Positions 18,740 to 45,307 of a stretch of DNA of 46,041 nucleotides are shown one piece after another (within the stretch, counting starts at the first letter, position 1; the number at the start of each line of letters is the position of its first letter). The DNA is taken from positions 1-46,041 of the IMG/VR virus record IMGVR_UViG_3300031951_009861; one strand, given 5' to 3'. The position numbers and the translations under genes were made by a program. A model generated the notes under the pieces. It worked only from the letters and a program-made list of their open reading frames with translations, did no database searches and was not told the DNA's origin. Origin of the DNA: a virus.

Positions 18740-18744
18740 CACAT

Positions 18745-18817: not shown

Positions 18818-18877
18818 TTGAAAGGACATAAGTTCTTTCATAAGACTTCGGGATCATCATATCCGAAGTCACCAACT

Positions 18878-18959: not shown

Positions 18960-18960
18960 C

Positions 18961-18989: not shown

Positions 18990-18997
18990 TGGTACAT

Positions 18998-19069
18998 GCG
19001 GAATTAGTTCAGTGGTAGAACGCCATCCTTCCAAGTTGGATGTCACCGGTTCGAATCCGGTATTCCGCT
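18998..19069 (+). tRNA. tRNA-Gly (TCC)
   Basis: Acceptor GCGGAAT/ATTCCGC, loop CTTCCAA, T arm ACCGG TTCGAAT CCGGT, T73. Confidence 0.93.
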
Positions 19070-19287: not shown

Positions 19288-19359
19288 GGGAGATTAACTC
19301 AGCGGTAGAGTGCGCTCCTTACAAGTGTGAAGTCACTGGTTCGAATCCAGTATCTCCCA
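19288..19359 (+). tRNA. tRNA-Val (TAC)
   Basis: Acceptor GGGAGAT/ATCTCCC, loop CTTACAA, T arm ACTGG TTCGAAT CCAGT, A73. One T-T mismatch in the anticodon stem. Confidence 0.92.
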
Positions 19360-19362
19360 TTA

Positions 19363-19369
19363 CTAAATA
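19363..19369 (+). promoter_or_regulatory. Late promoter CTAAATA
   Basis: 23 nt upstream of the Dps-like start. Confidence 0.5.
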
Positions 19370-19391
19370 CTTCTAAAGTATTTTTGATATA

Positions 19392-19928: not shown

Positions 19929-19948
19929 TTAATTAAAGGTATAGTACA

Positions 19949-20200
19949 ATGTTAAGAGTAAGATGTAAGGTGTGTAACACCGAGTTGGAGTCTCATCCAA
20001 CTAAAGCCGTGTGTTGTGGATGTGATAATATGACTCTTGTAAAAGGAGATACTATTACTGCTGTTGACTTAAATCAAGTAGTCATGTTAAACTCAGTTAA
20101 GGAAACTAAGAATTCTGGTGTACTTAGTGCGTCAGATCTTGCATATCAAGAGTCCAGAAGGGCCCGTAAGGTTCGTAAACTGGATTTTGAAATCCGATAG
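19949..20200 (+). CDS. Small zinc-ribbon-like protein
   Basis: 83 residues. Two Cys pairs near the N-terminus (CKVC, then CCGC) about 14 residues apart form a plausible zinc knuckle. The C-terminus is very basic (ESRRARKVRKL). The stop codon overlaps the first base of tRNA-Ser(GCT), so the mRNA and tRNA share a transcript that must be processed. Function unknown; nucleic-acid binding is inference. Confidence 0.65.
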   Translation: MLRVRCKVCNTELESHPTKAVCCGCDNMTLVKGDTITAVDLNQVVMLNSVKETKNSGVLSASDLAYQESRRARKVRKLDFEIR

Positions 20201-20291
20201 GAGGATTGGCAGAGTTAGGTTTAATGCAGGGGATTGCTAATCCCCCGATGTACTTTAAGTGCATCCGTTGGTTCAAATCCAACATCCTCCG
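20200..20291 (+). tRNA. tRNA-Ser (GCT)
   Basis: Class II; acceptor GGAGGAT/ATCCTCC, stem GGGGA/TCCCC, loop TTGCTAA, long variable arm, G73. Shares one base with the preceding stop codon. Confidence 0.95.
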
Positions 20292-20294
20292 TTT

Positions 20295-20379
20295 GGAAAG
20301 GTGACCGAGTGGTTTAAGGTAGCAGTCTTGAAAACTGCCGAGGTGAAAGCCTCCGTGGGTTCGAATCCCACCCTTTCCG
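20295..20379 (+). tRNA. tRNA-Ser (TGA)
   Basis: Class II; acceptor GGAAAGG/CCTTTCC, stem GCAGT/ACTGC, loop CTTGAAA, G73. Third serine isoacceptor here. Confidence 0.95.
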
Positions 20380-20439
20380 TTTAGAATAGTTACAAATTTA
20401 ACAATTACTTAAACACTTTTTGCAAATCAACACATAACG

Positions 20440-20467
20440 TTGACAATAAAGGCTGGGTGATTAGTAT
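20440..20467 (+). promoter_or_regulatory. Sigma70-type promoter
   Basis: TTGACA (20440-20445), 16-bp spacer, TAGTAT (20462-20467), upstream of the small-gene/gnd operon. Confidence 0.6.
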
Positions 20468-20493
20468 ATAGCCATGTACAACTCAATAATAAC

Positions 20494-20643
20494 ATGGACG
20501 ATCATACCTATAATAATTGGGTAAAGATCAAAGAGACCTTTGAGGCTTCTGGAAATCTTGACAATATGTTTTATAAAAGAGCATGTGAGATTGTAAAAAC
20601 TAAAAGAGACCCTCTTGCAAAGTTTTTTGGAGATGAAAAATGA
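20494..20643 (+). CDS. Hypothetical small protein (49 aa)
   Basis: Soluble, helical, charged (NNWVKIKETFEASGNLDNMFYKRACEIVKTK is its core). It directly follows a sigma70-type promoter and its stop overlaps the next start, so it leads the operon. Not recognised. Confidence 0.6.
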   Translation: MDDHTYNNWVKIKETFEASGNLDNMFYKRACEIVKTKRDPLAKFFGDEK

Positions 20644-20843
20644 TGCACGAACAAGATGAATTAATTACACGTTCTGAAGTTCAGGAGATGATCGATGCAG
20701 CAATACGACGACACAACCGTAATGCTTCTATCATTAGTATGTGCGTCGGTTGGGTGGTTCTTGCTTTATTTGCTGAGGGACTTTTGAGATTGGTTGGAGT
20801 TATTCCTCCTTTACTACCATGGCTCAAAATCACTCTGAATTAA
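20640..20843 (+). CDS. Single-span membrane protein (67 aa)
   Basis: Charged N-terminal helix (LITRSEVQEMIDAAIRRHNRN), then one hydrophobic segment (ISMCVGWVVLALFAEGLLRLV). Starts in ATGATG overlapping the previous stop; its 3' end overlaps the next gene by 25 nt. Function unknown. Confidence 0.6.
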   Translation: MMHEQDELITRSEVQEMIDAAIRRHNRNASIISMCVGWVVLALFAEGLLRLVGVIPPLLPWLKITLN

Positions 20844-21109
20844 TTTTTTTGGTTCCGTGGTTTGTTCTTTTGGTTATTTCTCTTTCTATGTTTGTACAAG
20901 GTTGGATGATTATGAATGCTCATCATGGGTATTCAAAAAGTCCAAAAGTTAAACATCCAGAATTAAACGACGTTAAGGCAGGAGATCCATTACTAGTGGT
21001 TAGATTCACAGAAGAAGATTTGCAAGAACTACATCAAAGAGTTTTTCAACAAAAAATGGAAGAACTCTTTGAAGAACCATCTACTTACGAGGATGAAGAA
21101 GATGATTAA
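20819..21109 (+). CDS. Membrane protein with acidic tail (96 aa)
   Basis: An N-terminal hydrophobic segment (ELIFLVPWFVLLVISLSMFV) anchors the protein; the rest is soluble and ends in a run of Glu/Asp. Overlaps both neighbours. A host-membrane modifier is possible, but nothing identifies the family. Confidence 0.6.
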   Translation: MAQNHSELIFLVPWFVLLVISLSMFVQGWMIMNAHHGYSKSPKVKHPELNDVKAGDPLLVVRFTEEDLQELHQRVFQQKMEELFEEPSTYEDEEDD

Positions 21110-21188
21110 GACAATATTTGCACTATCACTGATATATGCAACCCTTATAGGGTTGTGGATTTATTGGGGACTTACACACGCTTACTAG
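21093..21188 (+). CDS. Tiny one-span membrane protein (31 aa)
   Basis: MKKMIKTIFALSLIYATLIG begins with lysines and is followed by a hydrophobic helix ending WIYWGLTHAY. It overlaps the preceding gene by 17 nt and stops 9 nt before gnd, where AGGA in the gap serves as the gnd ribosome binding site. Confidence 0.5.
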   Translation: MKKMIKTIFALSLIYATLIGLWIYWGLTHAY

Positions 21189-21197
21189 GAAAACAGT

Positions 21198-22232
21198 ATG
21201 AAAGTAGGACTAATCGGACTTGGAAGAATGGGCGAAGGTATGTCTCGCCGTATGATGAAAGCAGGTATTGAAGTTTGGGGATATCGTAGAAATTATGAAA
21301 AAGCAAACGAAACCTTTGAAAAGGGATTTGTTAATGGAATTGCAACTAATATTGAAAGCCTTGTTAAAGTAGTTAAACAAAATAAAAATGGTGGAACACA
21401 ACCAGGAATCTTTCAGATGGTTGTCCCTGCCGAAACCGTAGAGGAGACGATCAATGAGTTACTACGATATTGTAGTGAAGGAGATATTATTATTGATCAT
21501 GGCAATAGCAATTTTAAAGACAGTCGGAAAAGAGCAGAACGTCTGGCAAAACTTGGTATCCAATATATTGATTGTGGTACTAGCGGCGGTGTTTATGGTT
21601 TGGATCGTGGATACTGTCTTATGGTTGGTGGCGGAAATACTGCGGTCTCCACTTGTTCGCGCATTTTTGATGCACTCTCCCCAGGAATCAATGCTGCCCC
21701 CAGGACTCAATTTGACTCACCTATAACTTCATCTGAATATGGTTGGTTGCATTGTGGTGGTCCAGGTGCAGGACACTTTGTGAAGATGGTTCATAATGGA
21801 ATAGAATACGGAATAATGCAGGCATATGCTGAGGGATTTAATATTATTAAGAACGCCAATGCAGGTGCAAAGTATGTTAGAGAGGGAGATGCAGAAGTCG
21901 CTCCAATGTCGGATCCTGAAAGTTATTGCTATGATATTGACGTTGCTGAGGTGGCTGAGTTATGGCGTCGCGGTAGCGTTGTTGGTAGTTGGTTACTTGA
22001 TCTTACTGCTGATGTGTTACGCAGGGATGGTAGCCTTAAACAGTTCTCTGGAGGCGTATCCGATAGCGGTGAGGGTCGTTGGACTGTTTCTGCCGCTGTG
22101 GACCTGGGGGTTCCCGCTCCTGTTATTACTACTGCCCTTTTTGAAAGATTTAATTCGCGCAATCTCGGTACTTTCGGAGCCAAGATTTTAAACGGTATGC
22201 GTTATATGTTTGGAGGTCATCATGTTAGGTAA
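21198..22232 (+). CDS. gnd: 6-phosphogluconate dehydrogenase, short (YqeC-like) form
   Basis: Oxidises and decarboxylates 6-phosphogluconate to ribulose 5-phosphate, making NAD(P)H. Visible signatures are the Rossmann motif GLIGLGRMGEG at residues 4-14, DHGNSNFKDS, the substrate loop GTSGGVYGLDRGYCLMVGG, and the catalytic HFVKMVHNGIEYG. At 344 residues it belongs to the shorter family rather than the ~470-residue enzyme. Phage gnd is a known auxiliary metabolic gene of cyanophages, feeding nucleotide synthesis through the pentose phosphate pathway. The 3' end overlaps the next small gene by 11 nt. Confidence 0.93.
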   Translation: MKVGLIGLGRMGEGMSRRMMKAGIEVWGYRRNYEKANETFEKGFVNGIATNIESLVKVVKQNKNGGTQPGIFQMVVPAETVEETINELLRYCSEGDIIIDHGNSNFKDSRKRAERLAKLGIQYIDCGTSGGVYGLDRGYCLMVGGGNTAVSTCSRIFDALSPGINAAPRTQFDSPITSSEYGWLHCGGPGAGHFVKMVHNGIEYGIMQAYAEGFNIIKNANAGAKYVREGDAEVAPMSDPESYCYDIDVAEVAELWRRGSVVGSWLLDLTADVLRRDGSLKQFSGGVSDSGEGRWTVSAAVDLGVPAPVITTALFERFNSRNLGTFGAKILNGMRYMFGGHHVR

Positions 22233-22341
22233 AGCACTTTTATTTGTTGCTATTCCTTTTGTCTTATCAACACTCTATTTCGGAACAAGAGGAGGATACT
22301 ATGACTCCAAAGACTATAAGGGAAATGGAACCGCACATTAG
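22222..22341 (+). CDS. Small protein with signal-like N-terminus (39 aa)
   Basis: MLGKALLFVAIPFVLSTLYF is a membrane or signal segment, then GTRGGYYDSKDYKGN. It starts inside the 3' end of gnd and overlaps the next gene by 41 nt in another frame. The next gene's AGAGGAGG ribosome site lies within it. Function unknown. Confidence 0.45.
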   Translation: MLGKALLFVAIPFVLSTLYFGTRGGYYDSKDYKGNGTAH

Positions 22342-22528
22342 GCAGAGATATTGGTTTGCTTCATCTTCATTTTCAAGGATGCTTGGAGTAAAAACTACAA
22401 TGAATGATATGCATATCAAACAGTTTTGTATCGAATGGTCCTATTGGGATGTTCACGCACCTTTGAGTGGTCTAGATGAGGCAGACCAATATTTTTACTA
22501 CGAGTATAAAAATTGGAGAGGAAGATGA
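22301..22528 (+). CDS. Hypothetical soluble protein (75 aa)
   Basis: The start at 22301 is chosen for its strong AGAGGAGG 7-8 nt upstream; an in-frame start at 22244 would run through the preceding gene's signal segment. The product is aromatic-rich (HIRQRYWFASSSF, EADQYFYYEYKNW). Its stop overlaps the next ATG. Not recognised. Confidence 0.6.
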   Translation: MTPKTIREMEPHIRQRYWFASSSFSRMLGVKTTMNDMHIKQFCIEWSYWDVHAPLSGLDEADQYFYYEYKNWRGR

Positions 22529-22641
22529 TTTTCCATATTGTAGAGACACTTGCATCTAGTTCTTTATTTCTTTTTTTATGTGGATGTGGCTTGACAATCG
22601 TGCCATTTGCTGGTATTATGTTTATACATAGAAATAGGTAA
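22525..22641 (+). CDS. Small membrane protein (38 aa)
   Basis: Hydrophobic throughout (LFLFLCGCGLTIVPFAGIMF). The stop is immediately followed by tRNA-Pro, and the promoter for that tRNA lies inside this gene. Function unknown. Confidence 0.45.
   Translation: MIFHIVETLASSSLFLFLCGCGLTIVPFAGIMFIHRNR
22591..22619 (+). promoter_or_regulatory. Sigma70-type promoter inside a small gene
   Basis: TTGACA, 17-bp spacer, TATTAT, 22 bp upstream of tRNA-Pro. It would transcribe the tRNA and the two radical SAM genes. Confidence 0.65.
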
Positions 22642-22715
22642 CCGGGTTTAGCGCAGTTTGGTAGCGCATCTGCTTTGGGAGCAGAGGGCCGGGGGTTCAA
22701 ATCCCTCAACTCGGA
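22642..22715 (+). tRNA. tRNA-Pro (TGG), copy 2
   Basis: Acceptor CCGGGTT/AACTCGG, stem TCTGC/GCAGA, loop TTTGGGA, A73. Same anticodon as the gene at 16615, different body. Confidence 0.95.
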
Positions 22716-22746
22716 TTAATTTTGATTCATCAAATTCAAAATTGTT

Positions 22747-24045
22747 ATGAATAAGAATAAAACTTTTTGCATGGCTCCTTGGGTTCATATGAACATCAAT
22801 CCTAATGGTGATGTATATCCATGTTGTCTATTGCCCATATGTGAAAGTGATACAAGTATTGATGGTCAAGAAGATAATGTATATGAACAAGAAAATCCAT
22901 TAAAGTATATTGCTTCTGAATGCGAAGGTCATCCTAGAGATTTTCGTGTTGGTTCATTGATGAATGAGTCTCTTCAGGAGATTTGGAACAATGATAAGAT
23001 GCGAGAACTTCGTAGAAATATGATGGCAGGAAAAAAATCCAGTTTCTGCACATCTTGTTATAAAGAAGAAGAAGTTGGACATTCTTCTTTGAGAAATACT
23101 ATGAATAATAATTATTCAAAACATTATAAGTATGTCAAAGAAACTAAAGAGGATGGTACTTTTGAAAGGTTCAATCTTGTATATTGGGATTTTAGATTAA
23201 ACAATATCTGTAACTTTAAATGCAGAATGTGCGGTCCTGGTTGCAGTAGTGCCTGGGAACAAGAAATGAGAAAAGAATTTGATATTAAGGGGGAGTTTCC
23301 AAAAATTGATATGGACATGGTTCGTCATGATATTGAACCATTGTATGATATTGTTGAAGAAGTATATTTTGCCGGTGGAGAACCTCTAATTGCTGATCAC
23401 CACTACGAAATATTGAACAAACTAATCGAAAAAGGTAAGACTAATGTTCCTATTCGATATAATACCAACTTCAGTACTCTCATATATAAAGGGACTAATG
23501 TTCTTGATTTGTGGGATAAATTTGAAGACGTTCATATTATGATTAGTTTGGATGGAATTGGAAAAAGAGGTGAGTTAATCCGTAAAGGATTTGATTGGCA
23601 AAAGTTTCTAAATAACTTCAAACTTTTTAGAAGTAGATTTCCTCATAATAATGTGAGAATTAATTTTGTTGTTCAGGCAATGAACTGTTTCCATGTTATG
23701 GATGCTCATAAAGAGCTTTACCTCAGAGGAATAATTAAGAGTTGGGATGAATTTTCTTTGTGTATTTTGCATAATCCAGATTTCATGTCAGTTCTTATTC
23801 TTGATTCTAAGTCAAGAAAACTACTTGGAGAAAAGATTAAATATCATATAGAAAATTATCTTGTACCAGCAAAGGCACAAGAATCAATTAAACAATACAT
23901 ATCGATTCTTAAACTTTTATCTACAGATAAGAAAGATAATCTAATTCCGCATTTTAAAGCTTATATGTCTGCACTAGATAGTATACGGAATGAAAATTCT
24001 TTAGAAGTTTTTCCTGAATTAGAGAGAGTTCTGGGCAATGATTGA
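22747..24045 (+). CDS. Radical SAM protein with N-terminal SPASM/twitch-like domain
   Basis: 432 residues. The radical SAM 4Fe-4S motif CNFKCRMC places Cys at 155, 159 and 162. The N-terminal ~110 residues hold FCMAPWVHMNINPNGDVYPCC and a second Cys pair (CTSCY), which look like an auxiliary-cluster (SPASM/twitch) domain. That domain normally sits after, not before, the SAM core. AGGEPLI supplies the SAM-binding GGE motif. Such enzymes modify peptides or sugars by radical chemistry; the substrate is unknown. The next gene is a full-length paralogue starting inside this one's stop. Confidence 0.85.
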   Translation: MNKNKTFCMAPWVHMNINPNGDVYPCCLLPICESDTSIDGQEDNVYEQENPLKYIASECEGHPRDFRVGSLMNESLQEIWNNDKMRELRRNMMAGKKSSFCTSCYKEEEVGHSSLRNTMNNNYSKHYKYVKETKEDGTFERFNLVYWDFRLNNICNFKCRMCGPGCSSAWEQEMRKEFDIKGEFPKIDMDMVRHDIEPLYDIVEEVYFAGGEPLIADHHYEILNKLIEKGKTNVPIRYNTNFSTLIYKGTNVLDLWDKFEDVHIMISLDGIGKRGELIRKGFDWQKFLNNFKLFRSRFPHNNVRINFVVQAMNCFHVMDAHKELYLRGIIKSWDEFSLCILHNPDFMSVLILDSKSRKLLGEKIKYHIENYLVPAKAQESIKQYISILKLLSTDKKDNLIPHFKAYMSALDSIRNENSLEVFPELERVLGND

Positions 24046-25279
24046 TACAAGTAGAATTAATGTAAACGGTAAAGTTTTTTGTGTTGCACCTTGGATGAAT
24101 CTAGATATTCGTCAAGATGGTGAAGTGAAGCCTTGTTGTGTTTCTGAATATCTTTATGGAGATATCAAACAAAAATCTTTATGGGAAATTTGGAATGATG
24201 ATCCCATAAAGAAACTTAGAGAAAACATGCTTAATGGAGTACCTCATAAAAATTGTGAGGTATGTTATGTTAATGAAAAGGCTGGAAAGAGTTCCCTCAG
24301 ACAAGACTTAAATGGTAGTTTGTTTAGAGATTATCCTGAATTTGTTTATAAAACAAATGATGATTACTCAGTTACAGAACCTGGATTTGTTCAATGGGAT
24401 GTAAAACTGAGTAGTAAATGTAACTTCAAGTGTAGGATGTGTAGTGTAACCTCCAGTTCTAGTTTTGAATTAGAACAAACTGGTAAGATTTCTGGAAGGT
24501 GGAACGCATCTGAGAAAGCATATGAAGAAGTAGAACCTTATCTAGGTGTTGCTAAACATTTATATTTCTCTGGTGGAGAATCATTAATCATAGATGAACA
24601 TTGGAAAATCTTAGACAAATTAGTTGAACTAGGTAAAAATGATGAAGTTACTCTTGCTTATAATAGTAACTTTAGTAATCTAATTTATAAAGGAAGACAT
24701 ATTTTCGATTTGTGGGATAAGTTTAATAACGCTGTAGAAGTGCATATAAGTGTTGATGGTGTAGGAAAAAGAGGTGAATTGATTAGGAAAGGATTTAAGT
24801 GGGACAGGTTTCTTTCACATGCAAAACAATTTAGAGAAAGATTCAAAGATAAGGAACATACTCATGAATTGCATTTTGATTGTACAGTCCAAGCATTGAA
24901 TATTTTTGATGTTGTTACATTACATCAATATCTTTATAATAGTGGACTAATGAAGAATATTGATTACTTCTTCTTAAATTTCATGCAAGGTCCAAGAGAA
25001 ATGACTGTTTGGGTATTGGATAAAAAAACCAAACAAGCTGCAAAAGAAAATATTAGAAATCATATTGATAATTTCTTAATACCGAATGGATCTACTAGGA
25101 GTGTAATTTTCTTTGAAAGTCTAATAACTTACATAGATTTGTACCAAGAACAATTATTGATACCAGATTTCTTAAGATCGATGAGAAAGTTTGATAAATT
25201 AAGAAATGAAAGTGTTATAGAAACATTCCCAGAATTCCAACGAATATGGGATGCAATAAAAATCAGAAAGGCCCCTTGA
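24038..25279 (+). CDS. Radical SAM protein, paralogue of the upstream gene
   Basis: 413 residues with the same order: FCVAPWMNLDIRQDGEVKPCC at the N-terminus, CEVCY, then CNFKCRMC with Cys at 128, 132 and 135, and the SAM motif SGGESLI. The conserved stretches DLWDKF, GKRGELIRKGF and LIYKG are shared almost word for word with its neighbour, so it arose by duplication. Overlaps it by 8 nt, implying equal production and perhaps a heterodimer (inference). Confidence 0.85.
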   Translation: MIDTSRINVNGKVFCVAPWMNLDIRQDGEVKPCCVSEYLYGDIKQKSLWEIWNDDPIKKLRENMLNGVPHKNCEVCYVNEKAGKSSLRQDLNGSLFRDYPEFVYKTNDDYSVTEPGFVQWDVKLSSKCNFKCRMCSVTSSSSFELEQTGKISGRWNASEKAYEEVEPYLGVAKHLYFSGGESLIIDEHWKILDKLVELGKNDEVTLAYNSNFSNLIYKGRHIFDLWDKFNNAVEVHISVDGVGKRGELIRKGFKWDRFLSHAKQFRERFKDKEHTHELHFDCTVQALNIFDVVTLHQYLYNSGLMKNIDYFFLNFMQGPREMTVWVLDKKTKQAAKENIRNHIDNFLIPNGSTRSVIFFESLITYIDLYQEQLLIPDFLRSMRKFDKLRNESVIETFPEFQRIWDAIKIRKAP

Positions 25280-25304
25280 CAACGGTAAAAATCTAAGTTA
25301 AAAT
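25276..25304 (+). promoter_or_regulatory. Sigma70-type promoter for Phd-like gene
   Basis: TTGACA, 17-bp spacer, TAAAAT; it overlaps the radical SAM stop codon and lies just before the antitoxin start. Confidence 0.6.
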
Positions 25305-25316
25305 AAGTCTAACGAA

Positions 25317-25529
25317 ATGAAATCAATGGAACAATTCACGGTTGAGGAATTCCAAAATAGATTCGACGAACTCTTTAATAGAGTTGAAGATGGTGAATCT
25401 TTTAGAATTGTTAGTGAACACGGAACCGCAATTATTGTGCCACACAAAGAAGTTGTAAAAATATTTGAAGATCTTCCTTCGGATGAAGAACTCATACGAA
25501 TACATACCGACCACGAAGAAGGTACTTGA
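25317..25529 (+). CDS. Phd/YefM-like antitoxin without toxin
   Basis: 70 residues. The N-terminal core (FTVEEFQNRFDELFNRVEDGESFRIV then GTAIIVPHKEVV) matches the Phd/YefM DNA-binding fold. These proteins repress their own operon and neutralise a toxin with a short C-terminal tail; here the tail is acidic and no toxin gene is adjacent. It may block a host toxin or act as a repressor. The MKSMEQ and MEQ starts are both possible. Confidence 0.75.
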   Translation: MKSMEQFTVEEFQNRFDELFNRVEDGESFRIVSEHGTAIIVPHKEVVKIFEDLPSDEELIRIHTDHEEGT

Positions 25530-25554
25530 CAAGTTTACTTACCCAAACTAAACT
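25526..25554 (+). promoter_or_regulatory. Sigma70-type promoter for tRNA-Ile
   Basis: TTGACA, 17-bp spacer, TAAACT, 10 bp upstream of tRNA-Ile(TAT). The -35 begins inside the antitoxin stop codon. A short inverted repeat ACCCA/TGGGT overlaps the -10. Confidence 0.6.
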
Positions 25555-25564
25555 GGGTTTTTAT

Positions 25565-25636
25565 GGGACTGTCGCCTATTGGTTAAGGCCCACTGCTTAT
25601 AACGGTGTGAACAGAGTTCAATTCTCTGCAGTCCTA
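25565..25636 (+). tRNA. tRNA-Ile (TAT)
   Basis: Acceptor GGGACTG/CAGTCCT (G-T first pair), stem CACTG/CGGTG, loop CTTATAA, A73. A TAT anticodon for ATA is rare in bacteria, which use a lysidine-modified CAT instead. Confidence 0.9.
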
Positions 25637-25639
25637 CTT

Positions 25640-25712
25640 GCTGGTTTAGCTATCTGGTGAAAGCGCCCGACTCATAATCGGTCTCAGGTGGGTTCGATCC
25701 CCTCAACCAGCA
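25640..25712 (+). tRNA. tRNA with CAT anticodon (Met or Ile2)
   Basis: Acceptor GCTGGTT/AACCAGC, stem CCGA/TCGG, loop CTCATAA, A73. The T stem has one mismatch. Third CAT gene of the window. Confidence 0.88.
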
Positions 25713-26531: not shown

Positions 26532-26661
26532 GTGGTGGAGTCAATGACCCATTCTGACCCCGTTGGTAAGGGTCTTTAAATATGCCAACTGGTGCGGAGC
26601 ATCTGCAACGGTTTCCTATTTTTCCGTTCGTCAAAAAGAATAGGTGGCGAGCCTGAGTTAC

Positions 26662-29989: not shown

Positions 29990-30765
29990 GTACTTATAAG
30001 GGCTGGGAAGCTGAAGAAAAAATTGCAATTGATTATCTTGAAACTTGTCGCAGTGCAGTTGAAGATGATGAAGTTTTTGCAAAATTTAAATCACTTCAAG
30101 GATATAAAAATATTCTTGAACACGTAACTCCTCGTCAAGGTTCAGAGTATCTACAACTAGCCATGGAAATGGCTTCAGATGCACTACTTGAAAATTTGGA
30201 GGCTTTTAAAGAAAACGATCTTATTGGTACTCCAGATAAGTTTTCTTATCCAGAAACGGGTAAAATCTCTCCCACTACAATTAGATACATTAAAAATGTA
30301 TTTGAGATGGCGACTCTTCTAGGTGAGTCTCCTATTAGTCGTGTAGTAGAAGTTGGTGGCGGGTATGGCGGACTTTGTAAGACTCTTAGTGTTGTCTGTG
30401 ATTTTGACGAGTATATTCTTGTTGACTTGCCTGAAGCAGTCAAAGTGCAAGAAAAATATATCAATAACTTTCCTGAACTCGCAAAAAAATGCAAGTTCAT
30501 TAGTTGTGATGACCTTGAGGAAGTAAAAGATGTAGACCTTTTTATTAGTAATTATGCTCTATCTGAGTGTGATTATGATACTCAAATTAATTACTATGAT
30601 AAGTTAGTTGCAAATTCTAAGTTTGCTTACATCATTTATAATCTTGTCAACTTTAACGATTTCTATTATAATAAGTTTACCGATAGAATGAGTGAACGTT
30701 TTGAGTTTACTACTTCTAAAGATTATGAAAATACTGTAATTCTAGCTAAGGTAAAAGATCAATGA
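29986..30765 (+). CDS. Putative sugar O-methyltransferase
   Basis: 259 residues. RVVEVGGGYGGLCKTL is the SAM-binding loop, with LVDLPEAVKVQEKYI and SNYALSECD matching the family annotated as putative sugar O-methyltransferase. The N-terminal helical region (EYLQLAMEMASDAL) is typical of it. Overlaps both neighbours by 4 nt. Caps or marks sugars on the glycan chain (inference). Confidence 0.78.
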   Translation: MSTYKGWEAEEKIAIDYLETCRSAVEDDEVFAKFKSLQGYKNILEHVTPRQGSEYLQLAMEMASDALLENLEAFKENDLIGTPDKFSYPETGKISPTTIRYIKNVFEMATLLGESPISRVVEVGGGYGGLCKTLSVVCDFDEYILVDLPEAVKVQEKYINNFPELAKKCKFISCDDLEEVKDVDLFISNYALSECDYDTQINYYDKLVANSKFAYIIYNLVNFNDFYYNKFTDRMSERFEFTTSKDYENTVILAKVKDQ

Positions 30766-31550
30766 ATCGAATCAAAGATTATAGTGACTTAGAAGATCGT
30801 ATTGTTAAATGGATTTCTGATTACTGTATCTATTATAATATTAAAAGTCTTGTAGTAGGAATTTCAGGAGGTATTGATTCTTCCGTAGTTTCTACTCTTT
30901 GTGCTTTGACTGGTATCAAAACCTACGTTGTGGGTATGCCTATTAATCAACTTGAAAATCAAGAATCTCTTTCTGATGCTCATGGTATATGGTTATCTGA
31001 AAAATTCTACAACGTTGAGTTTATCAAAACTGATATGAGTCAGGTTTATGATTCATTTTTGCAAACCATTGCAAGTGATATGGGGGAACAGTTTGCAACA
31101 AATAAACTTGCACAAGCCAATACAAGATCTAGAGTTCGTATGGTAACTTTATATCAAATTGCTGGATCTGTTGGTGGTATTGTAGTTGGTACTGGAAATA
31201 AAGTTGAAGATTATGGTGTAGGATTTTATACTAAATATGGGGACGGTGGTGTAGATATTGCACCTATTGCAGATCTTTATAAAACTGAAGTATGGATGCT
31301 TGGAGAACATCTGGGTATTGATGAAAGAATTATTTCTGCAGCACCCACTGATGGTTTGTGGGATGATGGTAGAACAGATGAAGATCAAATTGGAACTTCT
31401 TACTCTTTACTTGAGTGGGTTATGGAAAAAGGATTGTCAGAAGATCCTATGTTCCATAATGAGGAAGAAACAAATGCGATCAATGTATATCAAAAGTTTC
31501 ACATTCAAAATAAACACAAAATGGAATCTATTCCAACATTTAAGCTATGA
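30762..31550 (+). CDS. nadE: NAD synthetase
   Basis: 262 residues. Converts deamido-NAD to NAD using ATP and ammonia. The pyrophosphatase loop VGISGGIDSSVV is at about residues 32-43. Conserved ANTRSRVRMVTLY, VVGTGNKVEDYGVGFYTKYGDGGVDIAPIADLYKTEVW and PTDGLWDDGRTDEDQIG follow; no glutaminase domain. An unusual neighbour for glycosyltransferases: it may supply NAD to the dehydrogenase and epimerases in the same operon, or support the host redox pool. Confidence 0.9.
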   Translation: MNRIKDYSDLEDRIVKWISDYCIYYNIKSLVVGISGGIDSSVVSTLCALTGIKTYVVGMPINQLENQESLSDAHGIWLSEKFYNVEFIKTDMSQVYDSFLQTIASDMGEQFATNKLAQANTRSRVRMVTLYQIAGSVGGIVVGTGNKVEDYGVGFYTKYGDGGVDIAPIADLYKTEVWMLGEHLGIDERIISAAPTDGLWDDGRTDEDQIGTSYSLLEWVMEKGLSEDPMFHNEEETNAINVYQKFHIQNKHKMESIPTFKL

Positions 31551-37010: not shown

Positions 37011-38480
37011 ATGAAACTCAAACAACTGATGCTTGCACCCGTTGCTCTGGGTATGGTTGCTCCTGTTGCTGCGAATGCCGCAGACCTCAATATGGCAGCA
37101 GTCAACCAGTATACTTCCTCGGAACAAGTCTCAAGCATCAAACAACTCTCTGACGTGCAACCCACTGATTGGGCATATCAAGCACTCAGCAACCTTGTAG
37201 AACGTTATGGTTGTGTTGCTGGTTATGCAAACGGAACCTTTGGTGGTGGCCGTGCAATGACTCGTTATGAAGCAGCCGCACTTCTGAATGCCTGTCTTGA
37301 CCGTGTAACTGAACAAACTGATGAACTCAAGCGTCTTGCTAATGAGTTCCGTGATGAACTGACCGTTCTTCAAGGTCGTGTAGATGGACTAGAACGAGTG
37401 GTTGGTTCTCTTGGGGCAACTCAATTCTCTACTACTACTAAACTTCGTGGTGAAGCAAACTTTGTTCTTGGTGGTGTTGATGACTATCGTACCAAAGGTG
37501 GTGATACAACCCGCACCGCATTCAACTACGATCTTCGCCTGAATCTGGATACTTCATTTACTGGTAAGGATCTGCTCCGTACCCGTCTGCGCTCATCCAA
37601 CTTCAGTGGCGATCCTTTCGGTTCTAGTTCTTCTCTGTTCAAACTGGATAAAGCAGACAACACTACCAGTGAAGTTGGTAACAATGTAGTTATCGATCGT
37701 CTGTATTATTCATTCCCTGCTTTTAATAACAAAGCAACTCTGACTGCAGGTGCCGCAGTTCGTAACACTGAGATTGCTTGGATGCCTTCTGCTTATAAGT
37801 CTGGTATTCTTGACTTCTTTGCTGTTGCTGGTACTCCTGGTGTTTATAACAAAGCAACTGGTGCTGGTTTCGGTGCTCAGTATGGTAAGAAAGGTCTTAT
37901 TGCTGGTGTAAACTACGTTGCTCAAAGTGGTAACGATAGTGAGACTGGAGTATTTGATGAGACTGGTGCTCTGAATACTCTTGCACAAATTGGTTATCGT
38001 GGTACTAACTGGGGTGCTGCATTTGGTTACCGTTATGGTACTGAAGGAACTCGTGTTCGCACCTATAACGGTCTGAATGGTGCTTCTGGTACTCTGGTTC
38101 CTGGTCAAACCTCTAATGGTTATGCTCTGAACGCTTACTGGCAACCTCAGAAATCGGGTATTGTTCCTTCTATTTCCGCTGGTTATGGATGGAATACTGT
38201 AAGTGGTACTCCTAGCGATGCTACTGATAGCCAGTCTTGGTTTGCTGGTCTTCAGTGGGAAGATGTGTTTGTTGGTGGTAATTCCGCTGGTGTTGCTATC
38301 GGTCAGGCACCTACTGGTGAGAACCTTGAGAAATCAACGATGCTTGAAATCTTCTACAAGTATCAAGTCTCGGATAACATCAGTGTCACTCCTGCAATCA
38401 TCTACGGAAGTGATAACCAACGTCTTGCCGACAACTCCTCTAACTGGGGTGGTGTGATTCAGACTACTTTTAAGTTCTGA
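37011..38480 (+). CDS. Outer-membrane porin of cyanobacterial SLH type
   Basis: 489 residues. Signal peptide MKLKQLMLAPVALGMVAPVA, cleaved near ANA-AD. An S-layer homology domain at about residues 45-95 (SDVQPTDWAYQALSNLVERY, GGRAMTRYEAAALLNACLDRV) binds the cell wall. A short coiled coil (EQTDELKRLANEFRDELTVL) leads to a ~16-strand-type beta-barrel ending VIQTTFKF with C-terminal Phe. This is the architecture of the major porins (Som type, sometimes labelled iron-uptake porin) of Synechococcus and Prochlorococcus. The base composition is host-like. Probably acquired from a host; it may alter nutrient uptake or receptor display during infection. Confidence 0.92.
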   Translation: MKLKQLMLAPVALGMVAPVAANAADLNMAAVNQYTSSEQVSSIKQLSDVQPTDWAYQALSNLVERYGCVAGYANGTFGGGRAMTRYEAAALLNACLDRVTEQTDELKRLANEFRDELTVLQGRVDGLERVVGSLGATQFSTTTKLRGEANFVLGGVDDYRTKGGDTTRTAFNYDLRLNLDTSFTGKDLLRTRLRSSNFSGDPFGSSSSLFKLDKADNTTSEVGNNVVIDRLYYSFPAFNNKATLTAGAAVRNTEIAWMPSAYKSGILDFFAVAGTPGVYNKATGAGFGAQYGKKGLIAGVNYVAQSGNDSETGVFDETGALNTLAQIGYRGTNWGAAFGYRYGTEGTRVRTYNGLNGASGTLVPGQTSNGYALNAYWQPQKSGIVPSISAGYGWNTVSGTPSDATDSQSWFAGLQWEDVFVGGNSAGVAIGQAPTGENLEKSTMLEIFYKYQVSDNISVTPAIIYGSDNQRLADNSSNWGGVIQTTFKF

Positions 38481-39525: not shown

Positions 39526-39806
39526 GAAGTGCTGACTGGTTGGGGCAACTCTCCATTGCTCTTCAAAAATTAGAATGGACTGCTGATGATGAAATCTCTG
39601 TAGAGATTGGCGGAGTTGCAGTCACAGGAACTGCTACTCACCCAGATGCAAATCCAAAATGGGCAAAACCCTTTGGAACTGTATCCTATCAAAATGATGC
39701 ATTTATTGTAATTAAAAACAAATCAAGGAACCCAGTTGTTCCTTCACAACCAAATCCTGAACTTAAACAAAAACACCCTTATAATCATGCCCCAACTAAT
39801 TCCTGA
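39522..39806 (+). CDS. Hypothetical protein (94 aa)
   Basis: Starts at GTG overlapping the ferredoxin stop (GTGA). Beta-type sequence ([20 protein letters not shown], then [16 protein letters not shown]) with a low-complexity end. Cotranscribed with ferredoxin and the peroxiredoxin, which begins inside its 3' end. Not recognised. Confidence 0.6.
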
Positions 39807-40320
39807 AGAAATCGTAAATATTCCATCTGTGAACTTCATGTTCCGCGAAAATGGTGAATTTGTAACTCGATCTACTGAAGAACTCTTCGGTGGAAAAAAA
39901 GTAGTGTTGTTCGCACTTCCTGGTGCATTTACTCCTACATGCAGTGCATATCAACTTCCTGGATTTGAGGAAAACTACTCTGAATTTATTGAAGCTGGTA
40001 TTGACGAAGTGTATTGTCTTTCCGTTAATGATGCATTTGTAATGAATGCATGGGCCAAAGATCAAGGAATCGAGAAAGTTAAACTGATTCCAGATGGTAA
40101 TGGTGAATTCACTCAAGGCATGGACATGTTAGTTCAAAAACGTAATTTGGGATTTGCCCTACGTTCTTGGAGATACGCTGCTGTCATTAATGACGGAGTA
40201 ATTGAACAGTTGTTTATGGAAGATGGTAAACGAGATAATGCGGATACCGATCCATATGAATATTCTACTCCAGACAAAGTTCTTTCATATGTAAAATCAA
40301 AGACTCCTGTAGTAGTCTGA
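39787..40320 (+). CDS. Peroxiredoxin (Prx5-like)
   Basis: 177 residues. FALPGAFTPTCSAYQLPGF places the peroxidatic Cys at C52 within TPTC; Cys near residue 76 could be a second site. NDAFVMNAWA and the C-terminal YEYS region match the Prx5/redoxin group. Reduces peroxides, fitting oxidative stress under prolonged photosynthesis. Start at MPQLIPE (39787); the longer open frame upstream is the neighbour's 3' end. Followed by a palindromic terminator. Confidence 0.9.
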   Translation: MPQLIPEEIVNIPSVNFMFRENGEFVTRSTEELFGGKKVVLFALPGAFTPTCSAYQLPGFEENYSEFIEAGIDEVYCLSVNDAFVMNAWAKDQGIEKVKLIPDGNGEFTQGMDMLVQKRNLGFALRSWRYAAVINDGVIEQLFMEDGKRDNADTDPYEYSTPDKVLSYVKSKTPVVV

Positions 40321-40326: not shown

Positions 40327-40354
40327 AGAGAGGAGAATTCTCCTCTCTTTTTTT
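40327..40354 (+). terminator. Palindromic terminator
   Basis: AGAGAGGAGA / TCTCCTCTCT with almost no loop and a T run on the plus strand. It separates the peroxiredoxin gene from the convergent gene of the paralogue array. Confidence 0.85.
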
Positions 40355-41156
40355 ATGTCATTTTCCAGGTATATTTTCTTTTAGCAATATTCGTGCTTGT
40401 TTTAATAAAGTCATCTAGTAGTTGTATATAATCTGAAGCTGGAGAATCTTTTTGTATCCCAGAATTTAAGAAAAGATTTTTTATGTTTTTTGATATTTCC
40501 AAATCACAAACATTCTCTAAAAAATAATCTGGTCTTTGCATTCTATAGTTATTGTAGTATTCTTTAGGTGCAAATTCTAAATGTTTTATATTATAAATTT
40601 TTTCTCTTGCATTAAATTTTTCAAATGTTATCCTTATAGTTTTATCTGAGATATCTTTGTCTTTCCAAAATTTTGTGTTTTTAACATAATCAATATATTC
40701 TTTTATTACATCATCTGATCCTATTCCATAATCAATAGAATGATATGATACATCACTAAAAGATTTTGGGAAATATTTCCATTTAATTAGTATTCGACCT
40801 TGACCTGCCATTGAAATCCATTTGTCTTCATTTGTGGTTGTAGGATCTTTCACAAGAATAAAAGGATACATAAAACAATCATCTTCACAATAGTCCAAGT
40901 ACAAGTAAACTAATTTTGTAAATTTTTGTATTTTTATAGAAAACTTTTCATTTGTTCTATCTTCATACTCATCGGTATTAAAGAATGTCTCATAATCTTC
41001 TATCGCTTGTTGCATATTATCTTTGAAGGATTTATAGGAGTCTATTAAAATATTACTTGGCAATACTCTTTGAGATTCAGTTTTAAATCTCATTATCTTT
41101 GACGGCAATTCTATTTCATTTCCTCTATCATCATCAAAATACCTTATATCATACAT
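40353..41156 (-). CDS. Paralogue family member 1, unrecognised (267 aa)
   Basis: Starts MYDIRYFDDDRGNEI, the same opening as members 2 and 3. Mid-protein it has FTKLVYLYLDY, FMYPFILV, then AGQGRILIKWKYFP and a DYGIGSDDV box; the C-terminus ends KYTWKMT. The spaced Y-P-x-[IFV]...GxGR...YFP pattern resembles the ParB/sulfiredoxin-type core, but this is my inference. Only member on the minus strand; diverges from the glycosyltransferase at 41201 with a 44-nt AT-rich gap. Function unknown. Confidence 0.65.
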   Translation of the reverse strand: MYDIRYFDDDRGNEIELPSKIMRFKTESQRVLPSNILIDSYKSFKDNMQQAIEDYETFFNTDEYEDRTNEKFSIKIQKFTKLVYLYLDYCEDDCFMYPFILVKDPTTTNEDKWISMAGQGRILIKWKYFPKSFSDVSYHSIDYGIGSDDVIKEYIDYVKNTKFWKDKDISDKTIRITFEKFNAREKIYNIKHLEFAPKEYYNNYRMQRPDYFLENVCDLEISKNIKNLFLNSGIQKDSPASDYIQLLDDFIKTSTNIAKRKYTWKMT

Positions 41157-41200
41157 GTTAAATAATAGAATAATTAAATTATATAGATTGATTATTGGTA

Positions 41201-41866
41201 ATGAAAGTTTTTATTGGATATGATTCTAGAGAAGATGTTGCATATCAGGTTTGTAAATATAGTCTTATAAAACATCAATCTAAGGTAGAAGTTATACCTT
41301 TAATACAATCGGATTTAAGATCATCTGGTTGTTATTATAGACCTTTTGATGAGCCATCCTCAACTGAATTTTCATATACAAGATTTTTAACTCCACACTT
41401 ATCTAATTATTCTGGTTGGTCTGTTTTTTGTGATTGTGATTTTTTATGGCTATCTGATATAGAAGAACTGTTTAAATTCAGAGACGATAAGTATGCAGTT
41501 TTAGTTGTCAAACACGAATACAACCCAATAAATAAAATTAAAATGGATGGACAATTGCAAGTGAATTATCCCAGAAAGAACTGGAGTTCTCTTATTTTGT
41601 GGAACTGTAATCATCCATCCAATAAAAATCTAAATGTAGAAACCGTTAATAAGTTATCTCCTCAAGAACTGCATAGATTTACTTGGCTAAAAGATGATGA
41701 GATTGGGGAGTTGCCTTTGGAATGGAATTGGTTAGTTGGTTGGTATAAGGAGGGTAATCCAAAAGCATTACATTATACTGAGGGTGGTCCTTGGTTTGAA
41801 AATTATAGAGATTGTGAGTATTCTGAAATTTGGAAAAAATATTTTGGAGAGATGTCAAATGTATGA
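41201..41866 (+). CDS. Glycosyltransferase (GT8-like fold family)
   Basis: 221 residues. MKVFIGYDSREDVAYQVC opens the protein; SSTEFSYTRFLTPHLSNYSGW and FCDCDFLWLSDI (DxD donor motif) follow. YPRKNWSSLILWN and ELHRFTWLKDDEIGELPLEWNWLVGW complete the pattern of a widespread bacterial glycosyltransferase group with a GT8-like fold. The first in-frame ATG is used; a TTG two codons upstream is less likely. The next gene starts inside its last codons, so it belongs with the paralogue array. Confidence 0.82.
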   Translation: MKVFIGYDSREDVAYQVCKYSLIKHQSKVEVIPLIQSDLRSSGCYYRPFDEPSSTEFSYTRFLTPHLSNYSGWSVFCDCDFLWLSDIEELFKFRDDKYAVLVVKHEYNPINKIKMDGQLQVNYPRKNWSSLILWNCNHPSNKNLNVETVNKLSPQELHRFTWLKDDEIGELPLEWNWLVGWYKEGNPKALHYTEGGPWFENYRDCEYSEIWKKYFGEMSNV

Positions 41867-42653
41867 TATAAAATATTTTCATGATCAGTCGGGAGAGGAA
41901 TTAATATTTACGGAAGAAAATCCTTTACAAATAATGGGATTTGAATATAGAGAAAGTGAAAAAATAACAAAGGAAATGTATAAAGATGGCCTCAGAGTTT
42001 TTATGGAGGATGTCTTAGAGTGTAGGGATATGGATGGACCATTTTGTAGTGAGATTTCATATATCGAAAGATTAGAAGGTCAACGACAAAATAAAGTTTA
42101 CTTTGATAGATTTACTAAATTAGTTTATTTGTATCTGGATCTTCTTCTTGAGAAGAGTTTTATGTATCCTATCGTTCTAAACGATGATGTTATTAAATCT
42201 GGTCATGGTAGATCATTATTGGCCTGGAGATATTTTCCAGAGAAAACTTTTGATTTCGTTGTTAACTCAACCAGTTTTGGGATAGGGTCGGAAGAATTAA
42301 TGCAAGATTTTGTGGACAAAGTTAAGAACGGAACATATTGGAAAAATATTGATATTTCGGATAAAACAATAATTCTCAATATTGAAAATGTTGAAGACTA
42401 TAAATTGAATGATAGAGATTTATTTTTTATTAAGTCTATAGAATTCGTAGACGATAATTACTATCAAACGTTTCAGAATATTAGACCAGATTATTTTCTG
42501 GAAAACTCTTGTAAGATAGAAATATGGCACCGCATGAAAGATGTGATCATTAATTATAAACTTCAAAATAATATTGATGGATTTTTTGAAATACTTGACC
42601 ACGTAATATTTGATACTCTACCTCTTGCTAAAAAACTTTATACATGGAAATGA
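41859..42653 (+). CDS. Paralogue family member 2 (264 aa)
   Basis: MYDIKYFHDQSGEELIFTEE, then FTKLVYLYLDLLLEKSFMYPIVL, SGHGRSLLAWRYFP and FGIGSEELMQDF. The end is LPLAKKLYTWK. Closest to member 3. The GxGR block after a Y-P-I-V strand is the reason for a ParB-like guess. Overlaps the glycosyltransferase by 8 nt. Confidence 0.7.
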   Translation: MYDIKYFHDQSGEELIFTEENPLQIMGFEYRESEKITKEMYKDGLRVFMEDVLECRDMDGPFCSEISYIERLEGQRQNKVYFDRFTKLVYLYLDLLLEKSFMYPIVLNDDVIKSGHGRSLLAWRYFPEKTFDFVVNSTSFGIGSEELMQDFVDKVKNGTYWKNIDISDKTIILNIENVEDYKLNDRDLFFIKSIEFVDDNYYQTFQNIRPDYFLENSCKIEIWHRMKDVIINYKLQNNIDGFFEILDHVIFDTLPLAKKLYTWK

Positions 42654-42656
42654 GTT

Positions 42657-43466
42657 ATGTATGATATAAAATATTTTGATGACGTTACCGGTGAGAGATT
42701 GTTTTTTTCTAAAACAAATCCATTAAAGGTAATGAATTTTGAATATCGTAGAAACCAAAAGATTGTTGAGGACAGGTTTAATGAATCTCTCAAAGTCTTT
42801 ATGAGTGATGTTTTGGATGTGAAAAAGACATATGTTGATTCTTCTTATGAAAAAGAATATGTAAATGGAGTTCCATATGGTGGTCCCCCTGGAATTTTTG
42901 AGCCAATATATTTTGATATATTCACAAAGTTGGGATACCTTTACTTGGATTTGATCGAACATAAGTCTTACATGTACCCATTCATCTACACTCCACATAC
43001 TTTGAGATCTAAGAATCAATTACAAGCTGGTGGACATGGTAGAGCACTTATTGCATATAGATATTTTCCAGAATTTGAATTTGATATCTCAGTTCATTCT
43101 TCAGATTACGGGGTAGGGTCTGAAGAAATTTGTCATAGGTTTATAGATTCAGTTTTAGAAAATCGATATTGGAAAGATTTTGATTTATCCAACAAAGTTA
43201 TTATTATGACTATTGAAAATTTTCAGGATTTGTATTATATTAAATCAATAGACATTACTGACGAAGATTATTTCAATAATTATAAAGCTAGAATACCCGA
43301 ATCTTTTATTGAAAAAAGTGCAAACATAGAACTTTGGAATAGTATTAAAGAATCCATTATCAATTTTGATGTCAATAACTACAATGATCTTGTAGTTTTA
43401 TTGGATCAAATAATTTTTGATAATCTTTCTCTAACTAAAAAATTATATACTTGGAAATTTAAATGA
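42657..43466 (+). CDS. Paralogue family member 3 (269 aa)
   Basis: MYDIKYFDDVTGERLFFSKT, FTKLGYLYLDLIEHKSYMYPFIY, GGHGRALIAYRYFPE, YGVGSEEICHRFID, ending LSLTKKLYTWKFK. A 20-residue insert carrying Pro/Gly (GVPYGGPPGIFEP) precedes the core. Three nt after member 2. Same family, function unknown. Confidence 0.7.
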   Translation: MYDIKYFDDVTGERLFFSKTNPLKVMNFEYRRNQKIVEDRFNESLKVFMSDVLDVKKTYVDSSYEKEYVNGVPYGGPPGIFEPIYFDIFTKLGYLYLDLIEHKSYMYPFIYTPHTLRSKNQLQAGGHGRALIAYRYFPEFEFDISVHSSDYGVGSEEICHRFIDSVLENRYWKDFDLSNKVIIMTIENFQDLYYIKSIDITDEDYFNNYKARIPESFIEKSANIELWNSIKESIINFDVNNYNDLVVLLDQIIFDNLSLTKKLYTWKFK

Positions 43467-44332
43467 ATATCAATTATTATTATCAATTTAATGATAGCTC
43501 TAAGAACAAAATATTTGATGATATTGATCCTGACATAGAAGAACATCTTGAAGAGATATCAAATAGAGAAATCCGAGTAAACTACATAGAAAACGTTAAG
43601 ATTTCTCCAATAGTTTTTAATAGATCGTGGAATACTTTTGTTACCGATATAAATGATGTGAAAAGTAATTCAGAAAAATATGGAATATCTGAATACTTCG
43701 AACAAACTATGCAGTATTCTATGGGTTCCAATTATATTGTGCCTACTAGATTTCCTCATGAAACTTGTATCACCGATAAGACGGGTTTTATGAGATCTTT
43801 TTTGATGACATTACCATATCTTTATCGAGATCTTAAAAATTTTGGTAAATTTATGATGCCTTTTTTAATGACATCTGTTTATGATTTAAATGATAATATA
43901 AAACTATATCAAATAACTGGAGTTTCTAGGGCATTATTGGGTCATTTATATTTTCCAGATATTAGAGTAGACTATGCCATAAGTGATAAAGTTAACGGGA
44001 AATCAAGAGGAGATATTTGTTTTAACACAATTGAAGATCTCTGTAATCACATTCAACTGAAATCAAATATTGAATTTGATTATGTAGATATAATTATAGG
44101 AAAAGAACTTCAACGTGGCCATGCCAAAATGTTTGGTAAGATGAAAGATATTTACTACATTGAAGGTATAGAATTTAATAAAAATAACAAAAATTTTTAT
44201 GATAAGATTTTATCTAAGGATATTGTCTGGAAAACAATTTATGAATTAATAATTAATTCTAATCTTAATGAAGAAAAAGATTATCTAAAATTATTAGATA
44301 ATATAATTTCGGAGACTGAAGTTTTAATATGA
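43463..44332 (+). CDS. Paralogue family member 4, diverged (289 aa)
   Basis: MNINYYYQFNDSSKNKIFDD opens a diverged N-terminus. The core retains LPYLYRDLKNFGKFMMPFL, then TGVSRALLGHLYFPD, where the family's GxGR becomes GVSR. The final ~60 residues align loosely with the others. Overlaps member 3 by four bases. Altered core residues suggest changed or lost activity. Confidence 0.65.
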   Translation: MNINYYYQFNDSSKNKIFDDIDPDIEEHLEEISNREIRVNYIENVKISPIVFNRSWNTFVTDINDVKSNSEKYGISEYFEQTMQYSMGSNYIVPTRFPHETCITDKTGFMRSFLMTLPYLYRDLKNFGKFMMPFLMTSVYDLNDNIKLYQITGVSRALLGHLYFPDIRVDYAISDKVNGKSRGDICFNTIEDLCNHIQLKSNIEFDYVDIIIGKELQRGHAKMFGKMKDIYYIEGIEFNKNNKNFYDKILSKDIVWKTIYELIINSNLNEEKDYLKLLDNIISETEVLI

Positions 44333-45147
44333 TAAAAAATATTTTATGTTACGAGAAATATTGTGATCCTAGTTATTGGGCTATTTCTAAGTATCGAGAA
44401 ATAGATCCAAAAGATATCCAGATTTCTTATGTCTACAAAAAATCTATAAACGTTCCTCAGATTTTTACTGAGGATTATCTGTGTGATTTTATAAAATTAG
44501 TCTTAAAAATAAAGTATGGACCTTATAAAACTTTTGAGGAATCCTGCAAACATTGTAAGATAAGTAATTTTACAAAGTTGCCTCATCTATATAAAGCCCT
44601 TTTAACGGAACAATCTTTTAGATTTCCTATTGTTTCCGACGTAAATTTAACTCATATATGTTCTGGTGCAGGTAGAGTTTTAATAATTTCTAATTACTTC
44701 CCAGACAAAAAAGTTGATGTAATTTTTAATAGAACTAAAGATGACCCAGAATCGAACCATAATCTTTCGGATTTGGTTAGTGATATCGTCAATAATGATA
44801 GTTGGAAAGATATTGATCTGAGTAATTCTACTTTGTTTTTAGATTTTTATAGGAAAGATATTCAGAGAATTATTGGCATTGAAATAGCCTATGAAGAATA
44901 TAAGAAACTAGAGTTAAAAGATAAACCAGAACCAGGAGTTTTTTTGACTTTAAGGGAAAATGATTTTGATCTTTGGAAAAGAATGTATCCTGTTATAATG
45001 ACTACAAAGTGTTTGACTTTTAGTGACTATCAAAATCTTTTGGATAGGTTGGTTTTGGACAATGTTGAGTATGTAATGGATGACAACGTTGATTGGGGCC
45101 CAAGGCCCTTGACACCCATGGGAACCCGTAGTATGATAAATAGGTAA
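44329..45147 (+). CDS. Paralogue family member 5, diverged (272 aa)
   Basis: MIKNILCYEKYCDPSYWAIS, then TKLPHLYKALLTEQSFRFPIVS, CSGAGRVLIISNYFPDKKVDV and a C-terminal helix. Retains GxGR and the P-I-V strand. The tail past residue ~255 (WGPRPLTPMGTRSMINR) encodes no family signature because the psbA promoter lies within it. Four-base overlap with member 4. Confidence 0.65.
   Translation: MIKNILCYEKYCDPSYWAISKYREIDPKDIQISYVYKKSINVPQIFTEDYLCDFIKLVLKIKYGPYKTFEESCKHCKISNFTKLPHLYKALLTEQSFRFPIVSDVNLTHICSGAGRVLIISNYFPDKKVDVIFNRTKDDPESNHNLSDLVSDIVNNDSWKDIDLSNSTLFLDFYRKDIQRIIGIEIAYEEYKKLELKDKPEPGVFLTLRENDFDLWKRMYPVIMTTKCLTFSDYQNLLDRLVLDNVEYVMDDNVDWGPRPLTPMGTRSMINR
45109..45137 (+). promoter_or_regulatory. 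Sigma70-type promoter of psbA
   Basis: TTGACA (45109-45114), 17-bp spacer, TATGAT (45132-45137). Lies inside the 3' end of the last paralogue and about 170 nt upstream of the psbA start. Confidence 0.75.
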
Positions 45148-45307
45148 ACAAATGTTACGAAACCAAAAGTTCTCGTAACATTGTCGAACTCCCACTAACC
45201 GAGACCTATGGGGAGTATAAAAACGTCTCTCATATCCTGCCTGAGGGTGGCGGGAACATAGTATCACCACCATTTCCCTGATGGTCCTACTATTTTTAAA
45301 AAAAACA
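45148..45307 (+). promoter_or_regulatory. psbA leader, structured
   Basis: 160 nt without a gene. Hairpins: TGTTACG/CGTAACA (45153-45180), ACTCCC/GGGAGT (45188-45216), CCTGCC/GGCGGG (about 45237-45255) and ACCAT/ATGGT (45269-45285). The run of A before the ATG may aid translation. Possible post-transcriptional control of psbA, inferred only from folding potential. Confidence 0.45.

Follow-up and report, generated by a model that had tools for sequence, protein, structure and literature searches.

A glycosyltransferase-linked array of divergent cyanophage paralogues, probably with a remote ParB/sulfiredoxin-like fold

A glycosyltransferase (GT) gene and five to seven divergent paralogues of one protein family, mostly in tandem, form a mobile-looking cassette in some large cyanophages that resemble S-SRM01. 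The window described here is the whole stretch of DNA that was analysed, the 46,041 nucleotides of IMG/VR record IMGVR_UViG_3300031951_009861, and it encodes five of the paralogues (m1 to m5). Structural models make it likely that these proteins have a remote version of the ParB/sulfiredoxin-like fold. The family matches no described family or paper within the open-access literature. It is a new family, probably a distant version of a fold already known, and its layout is unusual in that the genes are arrayed and locked to a GT.

The first member, m1 (40353-41156, 267 aa), is encoded on the minus strand and is divergent to the GT gene (41201-41866, plus strand, 221 aa). The other four members follow on the plus strand: m2 at 41859-42653 (264 aa), m3 at 42657-43466 (269 aa), m4 at 43463-44332 (289 aa) and m5 at 44329-45147 (272 aa). 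The genes are packed in an operon-like manner, with overlaps of 8 bp between the 3' end of the GT gene and m2 and of 4 bp at both m3/m4 and m4/m5, and a gap of 3 bp between m2 and m3. The array ends 28 bp before a PhotoRC-II RNA (45176-45269, plus strand, 79.3 bits), which is the leader of psbA and the downstream border of the insertion. The upstream border is a peroxiredoxin gene (39784-40320, plus strand), and m1, the GT and m2-m5 are the content between peroxiredoxin and psbA. Because the array is AT-rich (28% vs 38% GC), its composition suggests acquisition. The coordinates and strands agree with the original prediction, made from the letters of the window, of five adjoining homologous genes (40353-45147, one inverted) coupled to a GT before psbA.

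The five proteins are one homologous family, far beyond chance. Pairwise blastp comparisons among m1, m2 and m3 gave E values of 1e-43 to 1e-78 (m1 to m3, 2e-45; m2 to m3, 8e-78), and m5 matched these three at 1e-10 to 1e-18. The most divergent member, m4, matched m3 at 3e-14 and m5 at 5e-6, and the majority of the comparisons that include m4 or m5 fall within 1e-5 to 1e-18. When a single member was used as a query against the whole record, exactly five places were recovered, and these are m1-m5.

Models of Pfam, NCBIfam, PHROG and PADLOC did not recognise the members and gave only scattered sub-threshold matches. Among 50,697 phage records searched by tblastn, the Synechococcus phage S-SCSM2R is the sole carrier of the family. 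Three contigs with family members were identified in IMG/VR (L007, L008 and L009), one of which, L007, matches the window without a difference across an aligned 2.4 kb. Using a family HMM, we identified six copies in L008, seven in L009 and five in S-SCSM2R, all far below an E value of 1e-10. With the five of the window, these make up 23 distinct proteins. As in the window, the copies in L008 and L009 form overlapping arrays. No cellular homologues were identified in a scan of genome contigs. A search of 386 genomes from the phylum of a Nostocales genome returned weak pieces only, and the three that were inspected proved to be antisense or unrelated proteins. Across the phage, IMG/VR and cellular searches, relatives of the family were found in cyanophages only.

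Five orthologous pairs from L008 and L009 have dN/dS values of 0.10-0.16, and a sixth has a value of 0.29 (NG86, pairwise). The low values (0.10-0.16) indicate purifying selection, and we conclude on this sequence-based measure that the array copies are functional. In the family tree, m2 and m3 are paired (support 98/97) as the most recent duplicate pair, and m5 groups with S-SCSM2R_263 (support 100/99). Member m4 is on a long branch, and the deep branches do not resolve.

A phage that lacks the cassette provides an empty site for comparison. The genome of S-SRM01 (Serangoonvirus, Kyanoviridae) shares the flanking genes of the window in the same order (GT11, GT2-like, GT11, GT25, ferredoxin, peroxiredoxin and psbA), but both the array and the GT are absent from the site between peroxiredoxin and psbA. 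There, the peroxiredoxin gene adjoins psbA, with only one 162-bp ORF between them. The annotation of psbA in S-SRM01 (L144, 8379-11279) is split into segments separated by endonuclease genes, a pattern that resembles invasion by homing introns. S-SRM01 also encodes a porin that is 72% identical to that of the window. The latter is a complete SLH/OprB-type porin gene (37011-38480, plus strand; the S-SRM01 homologue is annotated as 'porin'), and its matches in other phages extend over only about 18% of its length.

Peroxiredoxin is the upstream border in S-SCSM2R as well. The cassette of this phage consists of a carbohydrate phosphorylase, the GT, family members, KdsB-type (cytidylyltransferase) and KdsA-type (synthase) genes and then more members, and interleaved with the members are a gene annotated as an amidinotransferase and two annotated as 2OG-oxygenases. 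The fifth S-SCSM2R member lies outside the cassette, beside a radical-SAM/SPASM gene. The order in L008 is phosphorylase, GT, six members and psbA. In L009, a gene for a 1130-aa tail-fibre-like protein (11660-15049) follows the array in place of psbA.

In all four carrier phages the GT is present in exactly one copy, directly 5' of a run of members and with overlapping ends. The GT of the window (PHROG 28018) is GT8/GT24-like, with CDCDF as a candidate DxD motif, and shares 54-56% identity with its counterparts at this position in the three other phages. GT and family are thus both present in four of four carriers and both absent from S-SRM01. Relatives of the GT were also identified in Pelagibacter, Stenotrophomonas and Caulobacter phages, where the family is absent and the GT genes sit among sugar and methyl transferases.

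Upstream of the array, the window encodes a 10-kb glycan cluster with epimerases, a UDP-sugar dehydrogenase, GT10, three GT11, GT25 and GT7/GT2-type genes. The original prediction had offered a glycan-related role among its examples, and this role fits the context: the coupled GT, the cluster upstream and the KdsA/KdsB-type genes of the S-SCSM2R cassette. An NAD synthase-like gene (30762-31550) lies amid the sugar epimerases, UDP-sugar dehydrogenase and fucosyltransferases. Upstream of the cluster are a cyanobacterial-type tmRNA (18329-18579), a manA RNA (19076-19283) and a borderline wcaG RNA (26554-26658). Also identified were 28 tRNA matches (Rfam) within 10 kb (15780-25712) and genes for two adjoining radical-SAM/SPASM proteins (22747-25279), in which the SPASM-like match is, unusually, N-terminal.

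Counter-defence was the other example offered, and in that case each copy would block a different host system. In favour of this reading, accessory genes of phages typically come as diversified paralogues in tandem and as AT-rich insertions. However, no member has a PADLOC match, the GT is an obligatory partner, Kds-type genes occur within the S-SCSM2R cassette, and PF00303 (the base-hydroxymethylase type) is absent from the carrying genomes. We consider this role improbable and find no support for it. The absence of PF00303 genes also bears on DNA hypermodification, but cyanophages can use ThyX, so their absence is compatible with such modification.

The sequence features quoted in the original prediction hold, with variants in m4 and m5. 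The MYDI[KR]YF start is found in m1-m3. The counterpart of FTKL.YLYLDL is LMTLPYLYRDL in m4 and FTKLPHLYKAL in m5, that of YP[IF] is MMPF in m4 and RFPI in m5, and YFP is present in all five members. The GxGR box reads GQGR in m1 (40794-40805), GHGR in m2 (42201-42212) and m3 (43032-43043), GVSR in m4 (43919-43930) and GAGR in m5 (44665-44676). Invariant columns in the alignment of m1-m5 include L92, Y96, P108, G126, R129 and YFP 136-138 (m3 numbering). Across all 23 members only three columns are invariant: P108, G126 and R129. Thus, the GVSR of m4, which had been read as part of a graded divergence fitting functional specialisation, is not decay of key residues, as its G and R are those kept in 23 of 23. 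By sequence, the invariant Pro and the Gly and Arg of GxxR are the ParB/sulfiredoxin signature positions.

The predicted arrangement around these residues is also that of the fold. The ParB-CTPase fold is characterised by a C-motif helix and loop and by GxxR as the P motif, and Box III is often absent in divergent members (PMC12704722). In the ParB/sulfiredoxin superfamily the C-motif loop has about six residues and runs to a Pro that precedes a strand, and the P motif is also called Box II. In both AlphaFold models that we compared (m3, AlphaFold2, pLDDT 86.4, and the shorter member L009:8001, pLDDT 93), a long helix (H87-102 in m3, H63-78 in L009:8001) is followed by a hydrophobic loop ([FM]..P) and then the invariant Pro. 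The helix predicted after the second core strand begins with the G and R of GxxR. The family loops resemble those of ATP binders, whose C-motif loops include GFFKP and EFFLPTS (PMC12704722). Many members have S..[FY]GxG[SG]x[ED] where Box III of ParB would lie. The part of the models after the core is a beta-hairpin with short helices.

Such a nucleotide-pocket-like pattern of invariant residues bears on the idea that the GT glycosylates the paralogues, which would serve it as acceptors or chaperones, as a form of virion decoration. Acceptors of this kind could explain the strict linkage and the overlapping GT gene, and the tail-fibre-like gene directly after the array in L009 is in keeping with them. 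The conserved residues do not, however, have the form of a surface repeat, and the GT relatives elsewhere are found among sugar and methyl transferases, so we regard this as very improbable.

The models were compared with PDB chains using VIA-align (1000 chains for L009:8001), and entries at Z>=2 were counted. All nine such entries for L009:8001 have the ParB fold (Z 2.1-3.5): pNOB8 ParB-N (Z 3.5, rmsd 3.4 over 94 residues), KorB, ParB, PadC, Noc and SbnI (5uje, Z 2.1, rmsd 3.3 over 76 residues). The top entry for m3 is also pNOB8 ParB-N (5k5d, Z 3.3); about 11 of its 19 entries are ParB, Noc, PadC or sulfiredoxin (Srx), and the sulfiredoxins 1xw4, 3hy2 and 7lj1 gave Z values of 2.1-2.4. Foldseek searches of the PDB gave nothing significant for either model (E > 0.3), and the top matches for both, largely pyruvate kinases and HGPRTs, fell to Z < 2 on re-alignment. 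A PDB sequence search with family profiles gave nothing credible. Comparison by hhalign with a home-made ParB/Srx profile gave a score of 15.6 in the expected register, a score that 2 of 200 column shuffles equalled or exceeded and that the reversed alignment nearly reached (15.35). Loci were fetched with an Srx consensus sequence as the query, and the fetched loci alone were used. In five phage records, no member reached E<=1 against PF02195 (ParB_N; curated cut-off 26.3 bits), while the control matched in 11 of 14 genomes. No Pfam domain, including PF02195 and helix-turn-helix (HTH) domains, was identified in 18 members scanned singly.

These comparisons leave some room for a new alpha/beta fold that is neither ParB nor sulfiredoxin, in which the likeness at GxxR and Pro arose by convergence and the function is still glycan-linked through the GT. 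The non-significant hhalign and Foldseek results and Z values below 4 would fit such a fold. We find it unlikely, given that ParB-fold proteins are the top matches for two different members, exclusively so in the better model, and that the sole invariant residues are those of the ParB signature. The ParB/sulfiredoxin-like core that was originally suggested is therefore retained as a remote likeness: the members are homologous and the models are nearest to ParB-family proteins, but Z values of 2-3.5 and the non-significant Foldseek and hhalign scores keep the relationship distant. Given the low Z values, the non-significant Foldseek and hhalign results and the lack of a PF02195 match, we take a ParB/sulfiredoxin-like fold to be likely and leave the family outside PF02195.

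The family shares with the CTPase domain of ParB, Noc and KorB (PF02195; PMC12704722) the succession of strand, C-motif helix and loop to Pro, strand, GxxR helix and strand, and these proteins are the best VIA-align matches of its models. Unlike them, the family has no parAB linkage and its neighbours are the GT and glycan genes. It is also predicted to have a helical insertion of about 20 residues after the first core strand, a GxG[SG]x[ED] loop for Box III, and a C-terminal hairpin and helices in place of a recognised HTH. A small 'ParB-like CTPase' of S-SCSM2R was considered as a relative and belongs to another family; it lies in a stretch of tail-type genes and has a 2OG oxygenase as its neighbour. 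Many marine phage contigs encode a separate small 'ParB-like' family with GxHR (L001, 3927-4265, and L021-L032), which is similarly placed, amid tail-type genes and adjoining a 2OG oxygenase.

The fold binds NTP, which operates a switch in ParB, Noc and KorB and supports chemistry in SerK, SbnI and Srx (PMC12704722). If the members were switches, they would serve as regulators or scaffolds of host or phage genes that bind DNA or protein, rather than as catalysts. The top structural matches, ParB, Noc, KorB and PadC, do use the fold in this way. However, the core is followed by a beta-hairpin and short helices with no Pfam HTH or other domain, and GT-locked tandem arrays are unexpected for regulators. 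We consider switches rather improbable, and favour catalysis on sugars or small acceptors because no HTH or other domain was recognised, the partner is a GT and the surroundings are glycan genes.

Among the catalysts, the free serine kinases SbnI and SerK (ParB-fold, ATP/ADP) resemble the family in being single-chain proteins of similar length (SbnI is about 250 aa) and in the ParB fold that is probable for the family. Sequence similarity to them is undetectable, and their context is cysteine or siderophore synthesis rather than glycans. There is no invariant acidic column across the 23 members, and in their alignment we saw no counterpart to the catalytic acid of SerK and SbnI, a conserved Glu. 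Sulfiredoxin shares the GxxR-type nucleotide motif and the probable ParB fold, but the motif of the family lacks a conserved Cys (GKCR and GVCR in two members are the only cases), and the neighbouring peroxiredoxin of the window is a border gene that is also present in the array-less S-SRM01.

Tentatively, and short of an even chance, we propose that the members are NTP-dependent enzymes similar to SerK, SbnI and Srx that join the GT in remodelling glycans of the host surface. The occurrence of GT relatives without the family in Pelagibacter, Stenotrophomonas and Caulobacter phages speaks against this proposal, as do the weak absolute scores of the fold comparisons. Each paralogue would have a probable ParB/sulfiredoxin-like NTP-binding core, comprising an 'F.Y' strand, the C-motif-like helix FTKLPYLYxDL, a hydrophobic loop to the invariant Pro and the GxxR start of a phosphate-binding helix. 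The family-specific GxG[SG]x[ED] loop would take the place of Box III, and the C terminus would consist of a beta-hairpin and a helical region that are likewise peculiar to the family. Each paralogue would use ATP or another NTP as the donor of a phosphoryl or nucleotidyl group, with a sugar or small molecule as the acceptor. Different copies would have different acceptors in one glycan pathway shared with the coupled GT, and the outcome would be an altered host LPS or capsule during infection. NTP binding, catalysis and a glycan substrate are features that we infer for the members. The kinase step is only putative because no conserved catalytic acid was seen. Chemistry dependent on ATP or CTP, as originally put forward, is a fair inference, and the 'nuclease-like' chemistry named with it found no support.

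It is possible, if somewhat doubtful, that these proteins are a new enzyme class with the ParB/sulfiredoxin fold, which modifies glycans at the expense of NTP, has diversified in tandem arrays locked to one GT, and serves some cyanophages to rewrite the surface sugars of their host. The published survey of the fold searched by profiles such as PF02195 and TIGR00180 (PMC12704722); PF02195 is blind to the array family, and the fold may therefore be wider in phages than the survey counted. If the proposal is true, each array, with its five to seven diverged copies and single GT, would be a natural variant set for the nucleotide and acceptor choice of the pocket, and the arrays would be a means for cyanophages to alter the surface of their host.
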